Virus record (IMG/VR): IMGVR_UViG_3300030339_000196
Span: 1 to 27,932 of that record
DNA length: 27,932 nucleotides
Direction: 5' to 3' (one strand)
DNA from: a virus
The notes below the pieces were generated by a model, which saw nothing but the letters and a program-made list of their open reading frames with translations, did no database searches and had not been told where the DNA came from. How positions within the stretch are numbered: position 1 is the first letter of the stretch; each line of letters starts with the position of its first letter. Made by a program: the position numbers and the translations under genes. This document shows positions 4,023-25,158 of this stretch, one piece after another.

Positions 4023-4508
4023 ATGAAAGTAATATTTCTAGACATAGACGGAGTAATGAATTCCCAACTATTTTATGAAAAAAGGCATAAAAAACGATGG
4101 CTAAGACCTATTACGTACTGGTATTTTTTAAAATCAAAAGTAAAATATATTTTAAATGGATTTAAGTATAAATCAATATCTTTTGCTAATTATAAACCAT
4201 CAAAAAATCACAGAAAATTTGAATATCTATTCAATAGATTGAAAGAAGAAACTGAACCATTAAAATGGAAATGGCTATCTGAATTGTGTAATAAAGAAGA
4301 TTATAAAATTTGTATATCTTCTGTATGGAAAAAGCATTTTAAGAATAATGAAGAATGGAATAAAGCTTTGATATTACTTGGATTCAATTCTGATGTGTTT
4401 GTTGGTATTACTGGTAATAGAAGAACAGAACGTGGCACTGAAATAAAAGAATGGCTAAATGAGGCTATAAATACACAATCAGACTATAGAAAAATATGCA
4501 ATTATTGA
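4023..4508 (+). CDS. HAD-superfamily protein of the RNA-repair (Swiss Army Knife) type, frameshifted
   Basis: The 161-residue product begins MKVIFLDIDGVMNS, with catalytic D7 and D9 of HAD phosphatase motif I. Motif II is probably CISSVWKK near 97-104, followed by LGFNSDVFVGIT. This layout fits the HAD domain found in RNA repair proteins and in phages, which would remove phosphate groups at RNA ends; the substrate here is unknown. The frame ends early at TGA after NTQSDYRK. The missing acidic motif (DDDSDML) lies just downstream in the +1 frame, so this gene looks frameshifted at the A-run 4490-4494. A leaderless promoter lies directly upstream. Confidence 0.75.
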   Translation: MKVIFLDIDGVMNSQLFYEKRHKKRWLRPITYWYFLKSKVKYILNGFKYKSISFANYKPSKNHRKFEYLFNRLKEETEPLKWKWLSELCNKEDYKICISSVWKKHFKNNEEWNKALILLGFNSDVFVGITGNRRTERGTEIKEWLNEAINTQSDYRKICNY

Positions 4509-10520: not shown

Positions 10521-10805
10521 ATGAATATAACCACAGAACAAATTGAAAATGACTTACTAGATTTTTTTAATCCATTTGTTTATATTGCAGTACAAGAAGG
10601 TGAAACAGAAGGTGGATTTGATATTAAAGTTATAAACGAAACACAACTTCAGTTTATAATATTTGATAAAAATTGGGAAGATGATGATAAACAAAAAATA
10701 TGGGAAGAAACTTATGATGTGTCAGAATTATATAGTTTAGGTGCAATTAAATCAAAACTTGCACCAAAAATTGAAAAATCTATCCGTATATTCTGCGGGT
10801 TATAG
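10521..10805 (+). CDS. Hypothetical protein ending in TAG
   Basis: 94 residues with an acidic N-terminus, a beta-rich middle (GGFDIKVINETQLQFIIFD) and a helical tail. It resembles small phage proteins of unknown role. It is one of only two genes here that stop at TAG. The frame stays open after the TAG and leads into the ATG of the next gene at 10830, so suppression by the phage's own CTA tRNAs would fuse the two proteins. Confidence 0.65.
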   Translation: MNITTEQIENDLLDFFNPFVYIAVQEGETEGGFDIKVINETQLQFIIFDKNWEDDDKQKIWEETYDVSELYSLGAIKSKLAPKIEKSIRIFCGL

Positions 10806-12223: not shown

Positions 12224-12231
12224 TATATTTG
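12224..12231 (+). promoter_or_regulatory. TATATTTG promoter box before kptA
   Basis: TATATTTG 12 nt before the ATG at 12244 fits the Bacteroidota -7 box, giving a very short leader. It shows that the complete kptA has its own promoter after the antisense endonuclease. Confidence 0.6.
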
Positions 12232-12243
12232 CAAATAAATAAA

Positions 12244-12885
12244 ATGAATATGAACAATATATTACAGAAGAAAAGTAGAGAAATGAGTTACCTGTTAAGG
12301 CATGAGCCTGAAGACTTAAAAATAGACAAAAATGGCTATGTTTTAGTAACTGATCTATTAAAAAAATTAAACATATCATTACAAGATTTGGATGAAATTG
12401 TGTCGGATAATGATAAAAAAAGATTTGCTTTTAACACTTCAAAAGATATGATCAGGGCATCTCAAGGTCATTCCATTAAAGTTGATCTTCAGCTTAAAGC
12501 AACAAGACCACCAAGAGTTCTTTATCATGGAACAACTGATGAAAATTATCAAAAAATAAAGAAAACTGGTATAGATAAAGTTAAAAGACTTCAAGTTCAT
12601 TTATCAGATGATTATAAAACTGCATATTCTGTTGGTAAAAGGTATTCAAAGAATAAAGAACCACTCATTTTAGAAATTGATTCAGCAAAAATGAACACAG
12701 ATGGTTTCAAATTTTTAAAAAGTGCAAATGATGTTTGGATGACAGATAATGTGCCTGCAAAATATATAAGAGTACCTGAAATTTCTGATATTACTGGATA
12801 TCCTAAATGCAAAGATTGTGATAATGACAAATTAAACGGATGGAGTTCACATTGTAAAAGTTGTGGAATGCCTATTGTATATTAA
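12244..12885 (+). CDS. kptA: RNA 2'-phosphotransferase (KptA/Tpt1) with C-terminal zinc knuckle
   Basis: A 213-residue enzyme from ATG 12244; a TTG at 12229 lies within the promoter and is unlikely. Tpt1-family enzymes transfer an internal RNA 2'-phosphate to NAD+, yielding ADP-ribose 1'',2''-cyclic phosphate. The conserved Arg-His-Arg-Arg tetrad is visible: R19-H20 in SYLLRHEPED, R71 in IRASQGHS and R115 in KVKRLQVHLS, with the NAD-site VLYHGT at 92-97. After the usual end, residues 189-207 add two CxxC pairs (C189/C192 and C204/C207), a zinc-ribbon-like tail that most family members lack. Such enzymes repair RNA joined by 2'-phosphate-leaving ligases, fitting the RNA ligase and HAD genes in this window. 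Confidence 0.93.
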   Translation: MNMNNILQKKSREMSYLLRHEPEDLKIDKNGYVLVTDLLKKLNISLQDLDEIVSDNDKKRFAFNTSKDMIRASQGHSIKVDLQLKATRPPRVLYHGTTDENYQKIKKTGIDKVKRLQVHLSDDYKTAYSVGKRYSKNKEPLILEIDSAKMNTDGFKFLKSANDVWMTDNVPAKYIRVPEISDITGYPKCKDCDNDKLNGWSSHCKSCGMPIVY

Positions 12886-12896
12886 ATTAAATAATT

Positions 12897-13100
12897 ATGA
12901 AAAATATTAAAAATACATTCATTCAATCCATTATAAGATATAGTGGAATATTAATGATAATAATTATTTCTATAATAGCAACATTAATATTTGACTGTAA
13001 AAAATATGGTGAACATATTGCATTCTTTGATATATTATCAATATCTATGTGGATTTTAGTTAGTAATTTTATTGTAAAAAATTATTTAAATAAAAAATAG
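12897..13100 (+). CDS. Small two-helix membrane protein, copy 1 (stops at TAG)
   Basis: 67 residues with two predicted membrane helices (about 17-32 and 42-60) joined by the short polar loop DCKKYGEHIA. It is a paralogue of the next gene: the segment DC.KYG..IA.FDI.SI.MWILV.NFIV..YLNKK is shared. It ends at TAG 13098-13100. Beyond the TAG the frame continues for 21 codons (VDCDNDVSALIMKLSRLN...) to a TGA that overlaps the next ATG, so amber suppression would give a longer, coupled product. Function unknown; holin-like or immunity-type roles are only guesses. Confidence 0.7.
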   Translation: MKNIKNTFIQSIIRYSGILMIIIISIIATLIFDCKKYGEHIAFFDILSISMWILVSNFIVKNYLNKK

Positions 13101-14345: not shown

Positions 14346-14564
14346 ATGATAAATTTCAAAAAAATATTCAATTTAAATTCTGGTTATTCTATCAAAGAAT
14401 TACTGTATGAATATGAAAATTTATTATATATTGGATATATAATTTATAGGAGATATATAATTTTTGGAATTCCTATATATGAAGCTGTTGAAGATGGATG
14501 CTGTTGTGATATGAGTGCTTTATTAGAAAGATTAAACAACATTTATAAAAAAACTTTAAAATAA
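14346..14564 (+). CDS. Hypothetical small protein with a Cys triplet
   Basis: 72 residues, Tyr/Ile-rich with a possible hydrophobic central segment (LLYIGYIIYRRYIIFGIPIY, about 26-45) and an acidic DGCCCDMS motif near 50-57. The cysteine triplet could bind a metal, but there is no known family that I recognise. Last gene of the 13817-14564 cluster. Confidence 0.55.
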   Translation: MINFKKIFNLNSGYSIKELLYEYENLLYIGYIIYRRYIIFGIPIYEAVEDGCCCDMSALLERLNNIYKKTLK

Positions 14565-14863: not shown

Positions 14864-14917
14864 TAAATAGAAATCATGACGTAGATTTTAAAATTAACAA
14901 TTGTAACAAGAAGAGAT

Positions 14918-15265
14918 ATGACTGCCTCTTATCAATCTGTCCAGTCGACACACGCTGCAATCCAGTTCGTCTTTGAACATCCAGAAGTTGCTCAACTTTG
15001 GTTCAAAGATCCGTATTTAGCACAATTATCCGTAGAGAATGAACATGAATTAGAAATTCTCATTGCTAAATTAAAAAAATACAATATTAAATATTCTATA
15101 TTTCGTGAACCTGATATTGACAATCAGATCACAGCTATTGCTATTGAGCCTTCTGATCAAACCAGAAAGATGGTATCCTGTTTACCTTTAATGTTAAAGG
15201 AATACAATTTCTATACTAAAATTGATAAAAATTCTTATAAAGAGAAGGAGGAAAGTTATGTCTAA
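14918..15265 (+). CDS. Peptidyl-tRNA hydrolase 2-like protein
   Basis: 115 residues. The N-terminal YQSVQSTHAAIQFVFEHPEV, then LAQLSVENEHELEILIAKLK with KYNIKYSIFREPDI and QITAIAIEPS, follows the Pth2 layout: a substrate-binding helix with conserved His, an ELxxL helix, then a D-x-G/Q-T-A strand. Pth2 enzymes release peptides from stalled peptidyl-tRNA, recycling tRNA. The usual first strand is shortened here, as in the phage family of this type, and activity is unproven. The gene is less AT-rich than its neighbours. It ends 8 bases into the next gene. It fits the tRNA-centred content of this window. Confidence 0.6.
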   Translation: MTASYQSVQSTHAAIQFVFEHPEVAQLWFKDPYLAQLSVENEHELEILIAKLKKYNIKYSIFREPDIDNQITAIAIEPSDQTRKMVSCLPLMLKEYNFYTKIDKNSYKEKEESYV

Positions 15266-17427: not shown

Positions 17428-17432
17428 AAAAT

Positions 17433-17569
17433 GGGTTCTAGTCCTTGCAAGAGCTTACCGAGTTCGAAGTTGGTAAAGTCTCCCACAGTTTGAGGTTGGA
17501 TAAGAGTCAGATGAAGGTAAGTTGATCGTGAGAATATTCTGATTTGGGGTTCGATTCCCTATGAACCTA
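17433..17569 (+). tRNA. tRNA-like gene with about 60 extra bases
   Basis: The 3' part has a normal T-arm (TGGGG/CCCTA, loop TTCGATT) and acceptor strand TGAACCT plus A. The matching 5' strand GGGTTC is found only at 17433, making the unit 137 nt instead of about 75. Inside, CTTACCGA/TTGGTAAAG forms a long stem in the D-arm region. I cannot place an anticodon with confidence. It may be an interrupted tRNA or a tRNA pseudogene. Confidence 0.4.
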
Positions 17570-17580
17570 CATTAAAAAAT

Positions 17581-17710
17581 GGGCTACTGCACTTGGAGTT
17601 GAAAGTATGCTAATAAAGTACGATAAAAAGCAAAGGATAAAATTGATTATAGTGTATGGTGCACCTTTAACTATAATTAGTCGTAGGTTCGATCCCTTCG
17701 TAGTTCACCA
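17581..17710 (+). tRNA. Second tRNA-like gene with about 50 extra bases, encoding CCA
   Basis: The 3' end has a T-arm (GTAGG/CCTTC with one mismatch, loop TTCGATC), acceptor strand GTAGTTC pairing over 7 positions with GGGCTAC at 17581, then A and an encoded CCA. The anticodon stem ATTAT/ATAAT (longer form ATTATAGT/ACTATAAT) encloses 22 nt instead of 7, including palindrome GGTGCACC. Extra sequence is also present between the D-arm region and this stem. It is interrupted or decayed. Confidence 0.4.
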
Positions 17711-17714
17711 AAAA

Positions 17715-17787
17715 CCCTTGTTAGCTCAGTTGGTAGAGCAGAAGACTCTAAATCTTTGTGTCACTGGTTCGAATCCAGTACAAGCGG
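17715..17787 (+). tRNA. Amber suppressor tRNA, anticodon CTA (copy A)
   Basis: The D-arm is GCTC/GAGC with loop AGTTGGTA. The anticodon stem is GAAGA/TCTTT with loop CTCTAAA, which gives anticodon CTA reading UAG. The T-stem is ACTGG/CCAGT with loop TTCGAAT. The acceptor CCCTTGT pairs with ACAAG-GG if C17785 is looped out, otherwise one C-C mismatch remains. The loop is the same as that of the classical supF amber suppressor. The amino acid cannot be assigned from sequence alone. Confidence 0.8.
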
Positions 17788-17795
17788 GCAAAAAT

Positions 17796-17867
17796 GATCT
17801 TGTAGCTTAACGGCAGAGCAATTGACTCTAAATCAATTTGTTGTGGGTTCGACTCCCATCAGGATCT
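17796..17867 (+). tRNA. Amber suppressor tRNA, anticodon CTA (copy B)
   Basis: A regular 72-nt cloverleaf. The acceptor is GATCTTG/CAGGATC, the D-arm GCTT/GAGC, and the anticodon stem ATTGA/TCAAT with loop CTCTAAA (anticodon CTA). The T-stem is GTGGG/CCCAT with loop TTCGACT, and the discriminator is T. No CCA is encoded. The body differs strongly from copy A, so the two suppressors probably derive from different tRNAs and may insert different amino acids. Confidence 0.9.
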
Positions 17868-17872
17868 CAATT

Positions 17873-17951
17873 CGGGGGGTAGCTCAGTTGGTTTAGAGCG
17901 TCTGTTTTTACGAGCAGAAGGTCACATTTGGTTCAAATCCTGTCCCCCTGC
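17873..17951 (+). tRNA. Irregular tRNA with 8-nt anticodon loop (Val TAC-like)
   Basis: The acceptor CGGGGGG pairs with CCCCCTG, and the D-arm GCTC/GAGC is regular. The anticodon stem TCTGT/GCAGA encloses eight bases, TTTTACGA. Counting from the 3' side gives anticodon TAC (Val) with one extra T; a four-base reading would be TTAC. The T-stem pairs only if TTT is looped out (ACA-TTT-GG with CCTGT). No CCA is encoded. Either an unusual tRNA or one with base-insertion errors. Confidence 0.6.
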
Positions 17952-17953
17952 CT

Positions 17954-20826: not shown

Positions 20827-23013
20827 TTACCTACTTGGATATCTATTATTATTATTATTCATTGACGGTCTATTTCTATATACTCTACTATAAGCACCGG
20901 CAACTCCTTCAGTATTATTTGATTTACTAGTTATACTTTCTACAAATCTTAAAACATCACCAGACAAATTACAATTAACAAGCATATCCACAAGGTTCTT
21001 ATAACCAATATTATCAAATGCTGTTGATAACGTTATAGTTGACATAACAACATCATCGTGCCCACTTTCTGCGCGATAAGTTACATTTCCAGAAGTAGTT
21101 TCGTGCTTACTAAATGTTGTAATTTCATTTATATTAACTTCACTATGCAATATCATTCTTCTATTTCTAATTGATTGTTGAAATTCTTTATCTATAATTA
21201 AATGTTTATCTTTTGTCAACCTTAAACCTATTTTAGTTACAATATCTTCCCTATTTTGTTTATATCTTAAAAATATTGAATTAGAATATTGATTATCACC
21301 ATCAAAAACATTAGGTAAATGTGTTAAAAACTCTGAACCATAAGTATTATTCTCTAAAACAACTTTTACTTTTTCTGAATCAAACAATTCAAATGCGATT
21401 AAATAAAAAATATGAGCAACCTCACGAATAGAATAAAGATTATTTCTATACAAACCAATTTGCTCAATTTTGAACAACTCATAAAGACTTTCATACTTGT
21501 GCTTTTCAATCTCAGATTTATCACGCAGGGTGAGCTTAAATATGTTTAAAACCGAATAATCCTTGGCAAGTCCTTCTGATAAATCCACAGAAATCAAAAT
21601 ATAATAATCTTTAACTTTTTGTATATTGAAAAGATTTGGGTCTCTAACAAATTTCAACGATTCATAAGGAATATTTAATCTATTAAATTGCGGAAATTCA
21701 ATATAATCAAATGGTAACTGCTTACTTTTTAATAAATCAATAGTTTCTTTATTAAAAAGAATTCTATCGCCAGTAACAAAATGTAATCCATATTCTTGAT
21801 CAAATTTTTCTGCTGAACCAATAAGTTTTGTTTCTTCTTCTTGCCAATTAGAAACAACGGCCAATTCAGGTAATGGTATTCCATTTATACGAATTTTTCT
21901 AATATTATCTATATAAGTTTTTTCATCTTCAATTTCATATTTAACACAATCTATAATATCATCACCAACAGTTTTCTTATATAATTTAATATCATAATTT
22001 TCTCTAATTTCTCTTAACACTATAGATTTAGAAAGACCATACTTTTTTAATTTAAAATCCATTATTTTAATTTTAGTATCTTCACGTCCAGGTACTTGAT
22101 TCCAATACACCCTCATTGCCTTATATGGGTTCTTATTTGGATCTTCATCAGGCAATTCAGCAGCAGTTATCAATTCCCAAAACATATTATATCCACAAGG
22201 TGTAGAAGTTATTATAATCCTAGAATTTTCAACAGAAGATACTACTGGAATAATAGCTCCATAATAATCTCTAATAAAATTATCTGGAATATGAGCAAAC
22301 TCATCAAGATACAAAAGGTCAATAGTAAATCCAATTGATGGCTCCTTTGTTCTATTTTCTGTTTGAATACGGGAATTATTTTCAAATGCAATTTGTGTTT
22401 CATTCCAGTTTGTAACGCCTTTCTTCAGAAAGAATGGCAATAATTTATAAATATCTTTAATTTTTCTAATGATTTCTTTTACAGTTTTACCTTTATTTGC
22501 AACAATCATACATCCTTTATCATCATTAAACAATACAAAATGCAATAAAACAATAGCAGCAGATACTGTATTATGTGATAATATATCATTAGTATAATAA
22601 CTCATTTCAGGAGTATCAATTGATAAATCAAACATACTCACTTTACCATACATTTTTTTAATAGACACAACTCTACTTAAGCCTTGCTTAGTTAAAACAT
22701 AATCATCTGTAGTTAAAGTTATAAGCATTTTAGGCTCATAATCTTTACAAAAAACAATGTGTGTATCTGCACCTTCTAACCATAAATTATTTTCTAGTTT
22801 TAATCTATATCTTTGAAATGGTTGTGTTATATTTATTTCTGTTACAGGAACCATTCCATAATCGGTTTCAACTAATAATTCTTGATCTAAAAAAATAGTA
22901 TTAACGAATTTCTTTAGTATATCATCCTCATTAGGATTGAAATTTCTAAATTCATATCTTTCTATCAATTGAATTATAAAATATATTACATTTTTTATTA
23001 TATTTTTTAGCAT
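20827..23013 (-). CDS. C-terminal half of split large terminase, preceded by a C-intein
   Basis: 728 residues. Residues 1-148 are the C-terminal part of a split intein. A hydrophobic helix (MLKNIIKNVIYFIIQLIERY) comes first, then GADTHIVF at 81-88 (block B, His87... region), FDLSIDTPEMSYYTNDILSHN ending at N148 (blocks F and G, penultimate His147), and nucleophile T149. Residues 149-728 are terminase: TVSAAIVLLHFVLF continues the Walker A motif, LLYLDEFAHIP is Walker B, and VDLSEGLAKDYSVLNI, VVLENNTYG and GHDDVVMS are nuclease motifs. Trans-splicing with the product at 24649 would give a 695-residue T4 gp17-like motor that pumps DNA into the prohead. Alone it lacks the P-loop lysine and cannot bind ATP normally. 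Confidence 0.92.
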   Translation of the reverse strand: MLKNIIKNVIYFIIQLIERYEFRNFNPNEDDILKKFVNTIFLDQELLVETDYGMVPVTEINITQPFQRYRLKLENNLWLEGADTHIVFCKDYEPKMLITLTTDDYVLTKQGLSRVVSIKKMYGKVSMFDLSIDTPEMSYYTNDILSHNTVSAAIVLLHFVLFNDDKGCMIVANKGKTVKEIIRKIKDIYKLLPFFLKKGVTNWNETQIAFENNSRIQTENRTKEPSIGFTIDLLYLDEFAHIPDNFIRDYYGAIIPVVSSVENSRIIITSTPCGYNMFWELITAAELPDEDPNKNPYKAMRVYWNQVPGREDTKIKIMDFKLKKYGLSKSIVLREIRENYDIKLYKKTVGDDIIDCVKYEIEDEKTYIDNIRKIRINGIPLPELAVVSNWQEEETKLIGSAEKFDQEYGLHFVTGDRILFNKETIDLLKSKQLPFDYIEFPQFNRLNIPYESLKFVRDPNLFNIQKVKDYYILISVDLSEGLAKDYSVLNIFKLTLRDKSEIEKHKYESLYELFKIEQIGLYRNNLYSIREVAHIFYLIAFELFDSEKVKVVLENNTYGSEFLTHLPNVFDGDNQYSNSIFLRYKQNREDIVTKIGLRLTKDKHLIIDKEFQQSIRNRRMILHSEVNINEITTFSKHETTSGNVTYRAESGHDDVVMSTITLSTAFDNIGYKNLVDMLVNCNLSGDVLRFVESITSKSNNTEGVAGAYSRVYRNRPSMNNNNNRYPSR

Positions 23014-23028
23014 TTAATTTTCTTTATT

Positions 23029-23625
23029 TTATTTCCAAATATACAAACCTTTATTATTCAGCAATCCTTCGCAATAATTCATATCTATATTATAATTAGG
23101 AAAAACTATAGATAATATATGTTTATATATTCTAATTTTTTTCTGTAACACAGTATCACCAATTATAAAATATTTTGGAATATTAATATTATCTAAAATA
23201 TTACCAATTCTAACTAAAACTTCTTTTTCTTCATTTAATGCTGTTAAATCATCATATTCAAAATCATCAACATCATATTTATCTAATGTAAATGATATAT
23301 TCCAAACAAACTCACTATTTATTTTTGAATTAAAATTTTTCAACGGAGCTAAATCAATTCTATATTTATTACCAGATTCAGTTTTAAACCATATTTTATA
23401 TCCAGATTTATCATAATTTGAATAACTTGAATCAAATTTAAAAAATTCAATTTCACACTCTGTATCATCATATTTTTTATCAAAAGATTCTAATATGACA
23501 TTTCTATTAAATCTTTCAAAAGTATATATCTTCAAAAAAGTACTAATTCTATCAGATAGATTATGATTATTAACATAATTAATATATGTCTTATTAGTTG
23601 TTGAAATAGATTTAGTTTTTATCAT
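23029..23625 (-). CDS. Unknown protein between the split terminase halves
   Basis: 198 residues. The start overlaps the stop of the homing endonuclease by 4 bases (ATGA), so the two are translated together. The sequence is acidic and Asp/Asn/Tyr-rich with beta segments (YKIWFKTESGNKYRIDLAPL, VWNISFTLDKYDVDDFEYDD) and ends LLNNKGLYIWK. I do not recognise a family. Its place between the intein halves makes it a passenger of the split, or a gene that was there when the terminase was broken. Confidence 0.65.
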   Translation of the reverse strand: MIKTKSISTTNKTYINYVNNHNLSDRISTFLKIYTFERFNRNVILESFDKKYDDTECEIEFFKFDSSYSNYDKSGYKIWFKTESGNKYRIDLAPLKNFNSKINSEFVWNISFTLDKYDVDDFEYDDLTALNEEKEVLVRIGNILDNINIPKYFIIGDTVLQKKIRIYKHILSIVFPNYNIDMNYCEGLLNNKGLYIWK

Positions 23626-24590
23626 AAATTTAAATATTTTTTACACTTATCTAAAATCATATCTTTTCGGTTTTTATATTCTGAATCCCATATAGTCAAC
23701 ACTTCAAAACCATTTTCTTCAGCAACTTGTTTTTTCCTTTCATCTTTATCCCACATTTCTTGTGCTGTTATATTTTTTCTAAATGGATGAGGACAATCAG
23801 AAGTTTCATATAAATTTGGATTTGCATGATATTCATCACCATTATATTCTATTATTTTTTTATTCTTTAAATCAACAAAATCATATAGCCAAACACCGCC
23901 TTCTTTTTTATTTAACCGATATTCTTTATTTTTAGTAGCAAAAAATATGAATTCTTTATCTTTAACTAAATCATAATAATTTAATAATTCATAAAACAAT
24001 ATTTGTGAAACATTTGAATATCCATATTTTAAATTTCCATTTTCAGTTAAAGATTTTTGCCATTTTTCTTGTCTTTTAGTATAAATTTTTTTACCTTCAA
24101 TTTCACCATATTTTTCAATACATTTTTCTAAAGTAAAGGTCAATTGTCTTTCTTTTAATTTTTTTTTAGCATCTTCTTTATTGAAACCTTTATTTATCCA
24201 ATAATCTAATCTTACTGTATATGATTTTTTATCACACACTCTTTTAACAAAATTATTTTTTTCTTCAATAGTATAATAATTTTTAAAATTATTTGAAAAT
24301 GGAGATCCTGATTGTCTTTTTTCTAAAGTAGTTTTTGATTTATGATTAGGATTTTTTTCTCCCATAATCTTTTCTGAAAACATTTTTTTATATTTTTCGG
24401 TTTTCATATGCTTTCCACTATTTATTGAGGTTTTCTTATTATCTGTTTCAGTATATAAAGGTTCACCTGGGTACATATTTTTATAATCCTCAGACGTTAT
24501 ACCATGTGATTTCAAGTGTCTACCATAAATTCTTTGAGATTGAAATCCGCATATTTTGCAAGTAATAAAATCATTTTCCTTATTTTCCAT
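23622..24590 (-). CDS. Vsr-like (EDxHD-type) homing endonuclease
   Basis: 322 residues. The N-terminus (FITCKICGFQSQRIYGRHLK, then HGITSEDYKNMYPGEPLY) is a MucR/Ros-like zinc finger that is common in phage homing endonucleases. The C-terminal catalytic region (WLYDFVDLKNKKIIEYNGDE, then YHANPNLYE, and WDKDERKKQVAEENGFEVLT) matches very-short-patch-repair nucleases: acidic residues in DFVD and EYNGDEYH with the following His, and the DxxKxxxxxxxG core. Free-standing Vsr-like endonucleases between split intein halves are a known arrangement in environmental phage genes. It would cut terminase alleles without the insertion and so spread the split. Confidence 0.85.
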   Translation of the reverse strand: MENKENDFITCKICGFQSQRIYGRHLKSHGITSEDYKNMYPGEPLYTETDNKKTSINSGKHMKTEKYKKMFSEKIMGEKNPNHKSKTTLEKRQSGSPFSNNFKNYYTIEEKNNFVKRVCDKKSYTVRLDYWINKGFNKEDAKKKLKERQLTFTLEKCIEKYGEIEGKKIYTKRQEKWQKSLTENGNLKYGYSNVSQILFYELLNYYDLVKDKEFIFFATKNKEYRLNKKEGGVWLYDFVDLKNKKIIEYNGDEYHANPNLYETSDCPHPFRKNITAQEMWDKDERKKQVAEENGFEVLTIWDSEYKNRKDMILDKCKKYLNL

Positions 24591-24594
24591 AATC

Positions 24595-24610
24595 TTTTTT
24601 ATTCTATATA
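24595..24610 (-). promoter_or_regulatory. TATATAGAATAAAAAA element before the homing endonuclease
   Basis: On the minus strand TATATAGAATAAAAAA is followed by GATT and the ATG at 24590, almost the same as the block before the RHH gene at 7007. This could give the endonuclease its own promoter inside the split terminase locus. Confidence 0.5.
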
Positions 24611-24648
24611 TAAATATTTATTGGTCGCATTTAGTCAAAATGGTAAAA

Positions 24649-25158
24649 TTATTGTAATTTATATAATATTTTATATAAAAATACTTTTATATTTTCTAAT
24701 AGCATTAACTTTCTTTCCTTCTTAACTTCATTATAATAAAGAAAGCCAATAGGAATTTTTACTGTTTGTCCTGATTCCGAAACAACTAACACATTGGTTA
24801 TAAAGGAGTTACACTTACCCGTCTGACGGCTCGCCATCAATATACTTCTAGGATTTTTTGTATATAAATCTATAATATCTTTTTGGTAATCCCTAAGTGT
24901 CATTGGTCCAATTGTACCATCTTCTCTCTTAATTTGACAATAATGTTCAGCAAAATAATGAATATTAATTTTACATTTAATATATTCTTCAAATTCATCA
25001 TCTGTCATAGCAAATGTCACATTTGCTTTACGAACACCTCTTGTATTTGAAAACCAAAGTTTTTCGTGCCTTTTTAATATTCTTCCTAAGTTCTCTTTCT
25101 CTTCAATATATTTTATTATATCTGTTGTTAAAATAAAACTATCATCTTTTTCCGCCAT
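24649..25158 (-). CDS. N-terminal half of split large terminase fused to an N-intein
   Basis: 169 residues. Residues 1-115 are the terminase N-terminus (HYFAEHYCQIKREDGTIGPM, LRDYQKDIIDLYTKNPRSIL) ending in the Walker A start ASRQTGK at 109-115. Residue C116 begins the intein: CNSFITNVLVVSESGQTVKI (block A), then a Lys-rich turn and a hydrophobic helical tail ending FLYKILYKLQ, followed by TAA. The 54-residue N-intein is shorter than the roughly 100 residues of common split inteins and resembles the atypically split terminase inteins. Its partner is the 148-residue C-intein at 23013, 1.6 kb downstream. Without splicing the P-loop lysine is severed from the following Thr. Confidence 0.93.
   Translation of the reverse strand: MAEKDDSFILTTDIIKYIEEKENLGRILKRHEKLWFSNTRGVRKANVTFAMTDDEFEEYIKCKINIHYFAEHYCQIKREDGTIGPMTLRDYQKDIIDLYTKNPRSILMASRQTGKCNSFITNVLVVSESGQTVKIPIGFLYYNEVKKERKLMLLENIKVFLYKILYKLQ

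Follow-up and report, generated by a model that had tools for sequence, protein, structure and literature searches.

A stop codon near the start of phage PTH2-like genes as a probable target of co-encoded suppressor tRNAs

Why phages that use a normal genetic code carry transfer RNAs (tRNAs) that read stop codons is a puzzle, and it is posed by the IMG/VR virus record IMGVR_UViG_3300030339_000196. This contig of 27,932 bases (hereafter the window, meaning the whole stretch analysed) comes from a large tailed phage with a terminase large subunit, baseplate wedge proteins and RNA-repair genes, and it encodes, side by side, two tRNAs with the anticodon CTA, which would read UAG. The answer we propose is a gene for a PTH2-like (peptidyl-tRNA hydrolase-like) protein that is interrupted almost at its start by an in-frame TAG. 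Very probably this arrangement is a one-gene switch, in which the PTH2-like protein would be made only when the phage suppressor tRNA outcompetes the release factor.

The gene (14876-15265) opens ATG ACG TAG ATT TTA AAA TTA ACA. No ATG separates the TAG from the conserved PTH2 domain, whose first strand lies directly behind the stop; a caller of open reading frames (ORFs) using translation table 11 shortens the gene to 14918-15265, leaving that first strand upstream of the assigned start. When the TAG is read through, the protein matches Pfam PF01981 with an E value of 1.4e-5, above the curated cut-off. Its AlphaFold2 model, with a predicted local distance difference test score (pLDDT) of 87.7, has the PTH2 fold, and its best structural matches in the PDB are all PTH2 proteins, with template modelling (TM) scores up to 0.77. 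ATG ACG TAG is retained in the homologues of four relatives (L011, L056, L076 and L084; L numbers are our handles for loci), and other phages that were fetched only by their amber-tRNA pattern show an ATG, 1-3 codons and a TAG. The first-pass annotation of the window had offered, as its second alternative, that TAG serves as a switch for a few genes; this was right in kind, with a single conserved gene, the PTH2-like one, found to carry TAG in frame. That annotation had also held that its idea would fall if no conserved gene contained an in-frame TAG, and the PTH2-like gene both contains one and recurs across unrelated phages.

The stop that gates the gene is matched to the anticodon of the tRNA nearby. 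In all 38 clusters of loci that include a suppressor tRNA, the gate stop corresponds to the suppressor anticodon without a single mismatch (34 TAG/CUA, 2 TAA/UUA and 2 TGA/UCA; shuffle P = 2.3e-6), and gate and tRNA lie on the same strand, at most 5 kb apart. All three stops are thus represented. In a terminase relative, L063, an ochre tRNA (TTA) goes with a PTH2 gene that starts ATG ACG TAA. Two loci from a scan for ochre and opal tRNAs carry a TTA tRNA with ATG AAG TAA (L232) and a TCA tRNA with ATG GAA TCG TGA (L238); both were picked by their tRNA, and the gate was invisible to that scan. Conversely, L307 was picked by the protein alone and has a TGA gate together with a TCA tRNA. The cultured Agrobacterium phage Atu_ph07, read after the statistics had been compiled, shows the same TGA gate and TCA tRNA; its authors reported the UCA suppressor and named no specific target (PMC6102473).

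A survey blind to both stops and tRNAs looked for the protein motif EPD[ILM]x[ND][QE][IL]T in the DNA of 2.9 million viral contigs. The motif matched 66 stretches there, as opposed to 2 in 84,980 genomes of bacteria and archaea. The 59 evaluable loci formed 49 clusters at 90% identity. A gene was counted as gated if an ATG was followed by 1-9 sense codons, a stop and the PTH2 domain, with no ATG in between, and this held in 33 of the 49 clusters. A second PTH2 subfamily, represented by L117-L121 and L123, retains the lysine motif GKxASQ and starts with a Shine-Dalgarno (SD) sequence followed by ATG-CTT-ATC-AAT-TCG-TTC-CTG-TAG-GAA-GCC or variants of it, with synonymous changes on either side of the TAG. 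A protein search with this subfamily returned 23 gated loci out of 24, equal to 15 of 16 clusters. On these comparisons the gate itself is strongly supported. The signature scan for gated genes revealed no recurrent gated family besides PTH2, only scattered single cases.

Table 1. Elements of the gated gene and the suppressor tRNAs in the window
Feature	Position	Strand	Basis and remarks
Leader: start ATG and codon 2, ACG	14876..14881	+	Same ATG ACG in L011, L056, L076, L084
In-frame TAG at codon 3 (gate); next base A	14882..14884	+	Direct reading; relatives keep TAG; stop covaries with anticodon
PTH2-fold peptidyl-tRNA hydrolase-like protein, 126 residues past the TAG	14885..15265	+	PF01981; AlphaFold2 fold
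Amber suppressor tRNA 1, anticodon CTA	17715..17787	+	ARAGORN; Rfam RF00005, 60.9 bits; gated gene lies 2.8 kb upstream
Amber suppressor tRNA 2, anticodon CTA	17796..17868	+	ARAGORN; Rfam RF00005, 66.2 bits

Several observations weigh against the proposed switch. About nine clusters of the motif set (L142, L144, L151, L164, L172, L174, L177, L181 and L005) have a PTH2 gene near a suppressor but no recognised gate, and the same holds for L205 and L244; the gate is therefore not obligatory. In several gated contigs the sequence examined, either a piece or the contig, shows no suppressor; many of these are fragments. Clusters, or rows, from within one clade are not independent of each other. The TAA-gated PTH2 gene of L063 has a frameshift further in. 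Mycobacteriophages show (A/G)TG TAG GTG adjoining a CUA tRNA, and there the SD spacing suits the GTG past the TAG, so that these phages are ambiguous and may be ungated; they were left out of the cluster statistics. Finally, the subfamily of the window has GYQ or SYQ in place of the lysine of the motif GKxxAQxxHA, a residue which we take to be catalytic in PTH2, and hydrolase activity is therefore uncertain for that subfamily. The second gated subfamily (L117-L123) keeps the canonical lysine.

As for the mechanism, in the absence of the phage tRNA, release factor 1 would terminate translation of the window's PTH2 gene after two residues and no enzyme would result. Once the phage CUA tRNAs were transcribed, matured and charged, UAG would be read, a residue inserted at the stop and the full PTH2-like protein produced. 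The likeliest purpose, we infer, is that peptidyl-tRNA recycling rises only together with suppressor activity, because suppression and stops close to the start should leave behind short, abandoned peptidyl-tRNAs, which such an enzyme would clear. The coupling could also hold suppression within bounds. A broader version of the switch has about an even chance of being right: a lock and key that evolved in two or more PTH2 subfamilies and has been re-keyed among TAG, TAA and TGA, in which hydrolase synthesis would report the level of suppression and form a self-tuning circuit of translation quality.

Among the alternatives, the one that survives best accepts the gate and places its main point elsewhere. 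Ribosomes that fail to read through would abort after 1-9 codons, as on a minigene, and each would shed a short peptidyl-tRNA of the kind that the enzyme encoded downstream acts on; in this way the gene would respond to the state of peptidyl-tRNA or release factor, in a feedback similar to that of prfB. The leaders fit this idea, being 1-9 sense codons long with a mode of 2 and at most 5 in 47 of 51 clusters, and they stay short even where up to some 30 non-conserved codons follow the stop. Their lengths fall where peptidyl-tRNA leaves the ribosome, drop-off being associated with chains under 7 residues, and the lambda bar minigene is toxic without Pth (PMC8012679). On the other hand, the variant subfamily that includes the window protein lacks the catalytic lysine, and early stops might also have been chosen simply to spare protein. 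We regard this account as possible and, on balance, rather unlikely.

It is also conceivable, although improbable, that no suppression takes place at all: translation would start at a non-standard codon just past the stop, often ATT or GTN, and ATG-X-TAG would serve as a short leader ORF for tuning initiation. An ATT does follow the stop directly in 20 of 51 clusters, and in the mycobacteriophages a GTG with good SD spacing after the TAG is a plausible start. Against this, of the 61 distinct PTH2 loci that have no ATG after the stop, 59 have one at most 9 codons ahead of it, versus 12.3% of control frames (p = 4e-51), and the SD-like motif, where present, is 6-8 nt from that upstream ATG in 20 of 21 clusters. 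A purine after a stop codon favours its suppression; 47 of 51 clusters have one immediately past the gate, as compared with 81 of the 172 other TAG stops (P = 1.6e-9). The upstream ATG, the SD spacing and the purine therefore argue against a start past the stop. Codons such as AAC, GAA, GGC, CTG, ACC and GAC are found behind the stop as well, the leader MLxNSFL of L117-L121 is conserved with its changes synonymous, and the agreement of stop and anticodon throughout the 38 clusters, together with Atu_ph07, weighs against such a start too.

Less credible still is a partial or complete genome-wide reassignment of TAG (code 15, or a switch of code in late genes), which would make the TAG of the PTH2 gene one of many sense codons; the partial form was the first alternative of the first-pass annotation. 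Suppressor tRNAs are indeed a hallmark of recoded phages (PMC10879173), but internal TAG is rare in the long frames of the window, at 0.16 per 1000 codons versus 8.15 in a recoded control, the Lak phage, and it is near zero in the long frames of the AT-rich gated loci, the window among them. Opening TAG leaves the coding density of the window almost flat (0.79 to 0.81), while that of Lak rises from 0.47 to 0.85, and no in-frame TAG occurs in the conserved terminase, clamp and baseplate genes. Judged from these sequences, the code of the gated phages is otherwise standard, and reassignment is largely refuted for the window, which is a fragment; recoded genes could lie elsewhere in its genome. 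Genome-wide recoding was also considered as a reason for the ungated PTH2 genes, and it fits Lak only. The annotation's count of only two genes ending at TAG holds for ORFs of at least 60 amino acids (10521-10805 and 12897-13100). Both of these ORFs, with their TAG at 10803-10805 and 13098-13100 (+ strand), have an in-frame extension, and the extension past the second TAG, VDCDNDVSALIMKLSRLN, resembles the C-terminus of the ORF at 14346-14564. Homologues of the two ORFs were not found among the fetched loci.

A different role for the suppressor tRNAs (such as reading through stops in host genes, or replacing cleaved tRNAs), with the PTH2 TAG a mark of gene decay, is hardly tenable: the roughly nine clusters of the motif set in which a suppressor adjoins an ungated PTH2 would suit it, but in 48 clusters (33 + 15) from unrelated phages an early, conserved stop is followed by an intact conserved body, and the type of stop tracks the anticodon.

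The gate with its matching tRNA can also be followed into cultured phages. XacN1 ORF364 and its counterpart in RAS14 both begin ATG AAG TAG ACC, accompany a CUA tRNA and are fusions with an N-terminal domain. A TAG gate and a CUA tRNA are found as well in GAP32, Serratia phage BF, Acinetobacter phage ME3, Salmonella phage Arash, Sinorhizobium phage Phosso and Tenacibaculum phage pT24. The authors of XacN1 read across amber codons and found no target for its two CUA tRNAs (PMC5852040); we propose ORF364 as the candidate. Klebsiella phage RaK2 has an ordinary PTH2 start, and no CUA tRNA was found in it; the PTH2 genes on Variovorax, Pseudomonas and Vibrio megaplasmids are ungated. Annotations can be corrected accordingly, as gene callers truncate or miss gated genes. 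The gated PTH2-like gene of Serratia phage BF (L349, 3950-4300) is unannotated, probably because of its in-frame TAG; the same hit lacks annotation in several Erwinia pEa_SNUABM phages, and the annotated PTH2 genes of GAP32, pT24 and Arash are truncated. In Arash, an annotated tRNA-Phe (L352, 5301-5372) has the anticodon CTA and is an amber suppressor according to ARAGORN. The 636-kb phage LR756504.1 (L321, 951-1307, - strand) has a transfer-messenger RNA near a CTA-like tRNA whose anticodon loop is 8 nt long, and it also carries a TAG-gated PTH2 gene.

Related systems share parts of this arrangement. In recoded gut phages (code 15 crAss-like phages and Lak, and those with theta-ribozyme-linked suppressor tRNAs; PMC10879173), a phage suppressor tRNA likewise reads a stop codon in a host of standard code, and a timing switch has been proposed. 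However, their stops are scattered over many structural and lysis genes, whereas the gated phages keep a standard code and have the stop in one gene, at codon 2-10, with matching anticodons for all three stops. The prfB gene of release factor 2, a translation factor, also meets a stop in frame soon after its start, and the state of termination controls synthesis of the factor, but it depends on a +1 frameshift without any suppressor tRNA, while the gated genes keep one frame before and after the stop and have a co-encoded tRNA as the putative key. The lambda bar minigene (AUG AUA UAA; PMC8012679) resembles the gate in its ATG, one or few codons and stop, and in its tie to peptidyl-tRNA hydrolase; it stands alone, whereas here the hydrolase-like gene runs on in frame past the stop. 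The PTH2 genes of jumbo phages belong to the same enzyme family and have been reported as a ribosome-rescue function, in a paper that mentions neither a stop-codon gate nor a link to suppressor tRNAs (PMC7824862). The reports on XacN1 (PMC5852040) and Atu_ph07 (PMC6102473) describe the same tRNAs, to which we add ORF364 or the gated PTH2 gene as the proposed target. No earlier report of the arrangement was found in the open-access literature, with subscription papers and preprints lying outside the search. If correct, it would represent a regulatory principle for which we found no report, in which a tRNA gene acts in trans to unlock a single protein-coding gene, and many large phages appear to lock a PTH2-like gene in this way.

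With regard to the two tRNAs of the window, ARAGORN and Rfam RF00005 bear out the anticodon loop CTCTAAA with CTA that had been noticed in both. Their supposed descent from different ancestors is not established: the two are 70% identical, yet the equivalent pair in the relative L084 is 82% identical and has a common anticodon arm. The pair or a single member also adjoins the terminase region in L033/L059, L054, L056, L064, L074, L076, L077 and L084, and so the tRNAs are no chance match. Neither has the shape of a tRNA-Pyl, as both cloverleafs are ordinary, with D loops AGTTGGTA or AACGGCA and T arms GGTTCGA, and there is neither a reduced D loop nor an atypical T loop; the ARAGORN label stems from the CTA anticodon alone. 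A third tRNA at 17873-17952 (+ strand) adjoins the suppressors and has an 8-nt anticodon loop, TTTTACGA, which in L011 (2421-2501) is TTTAACTG; it is possibly a four-base decoder or an odd tRNA-Val. Upstream, the elements at 17430-17575 and 17578-17714 (+ strand) combine tRNA-like acceptor and T-arm ends with long interiors unlike those of tRNAs. ARAGORN detected no intron-containing tRNA in them, and they are kept in some relatives (93% in L059, 77% in L056).

Elsewhere in the window, the RNA-repair genes at 818-1498, 12229-12885 and 4023-4508 encode an RNA ligase, a KptA/Tpt1 2'-phosphotransferase and a HAD_SAK_2 domain protein, respectively. The terminase large subunit (20827-25158, - strand) appears to be split into two genes by an apparent split intein, its N-terminal half ending ..RQTGK|CNSFITNVLVVSESG and its C-terminal half having an intein-like C part that ends ..LSHN|TVSAA. 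Two genes lie between the halves, one of which (23622-24590) resembles a homing-endonuclease-type protein.
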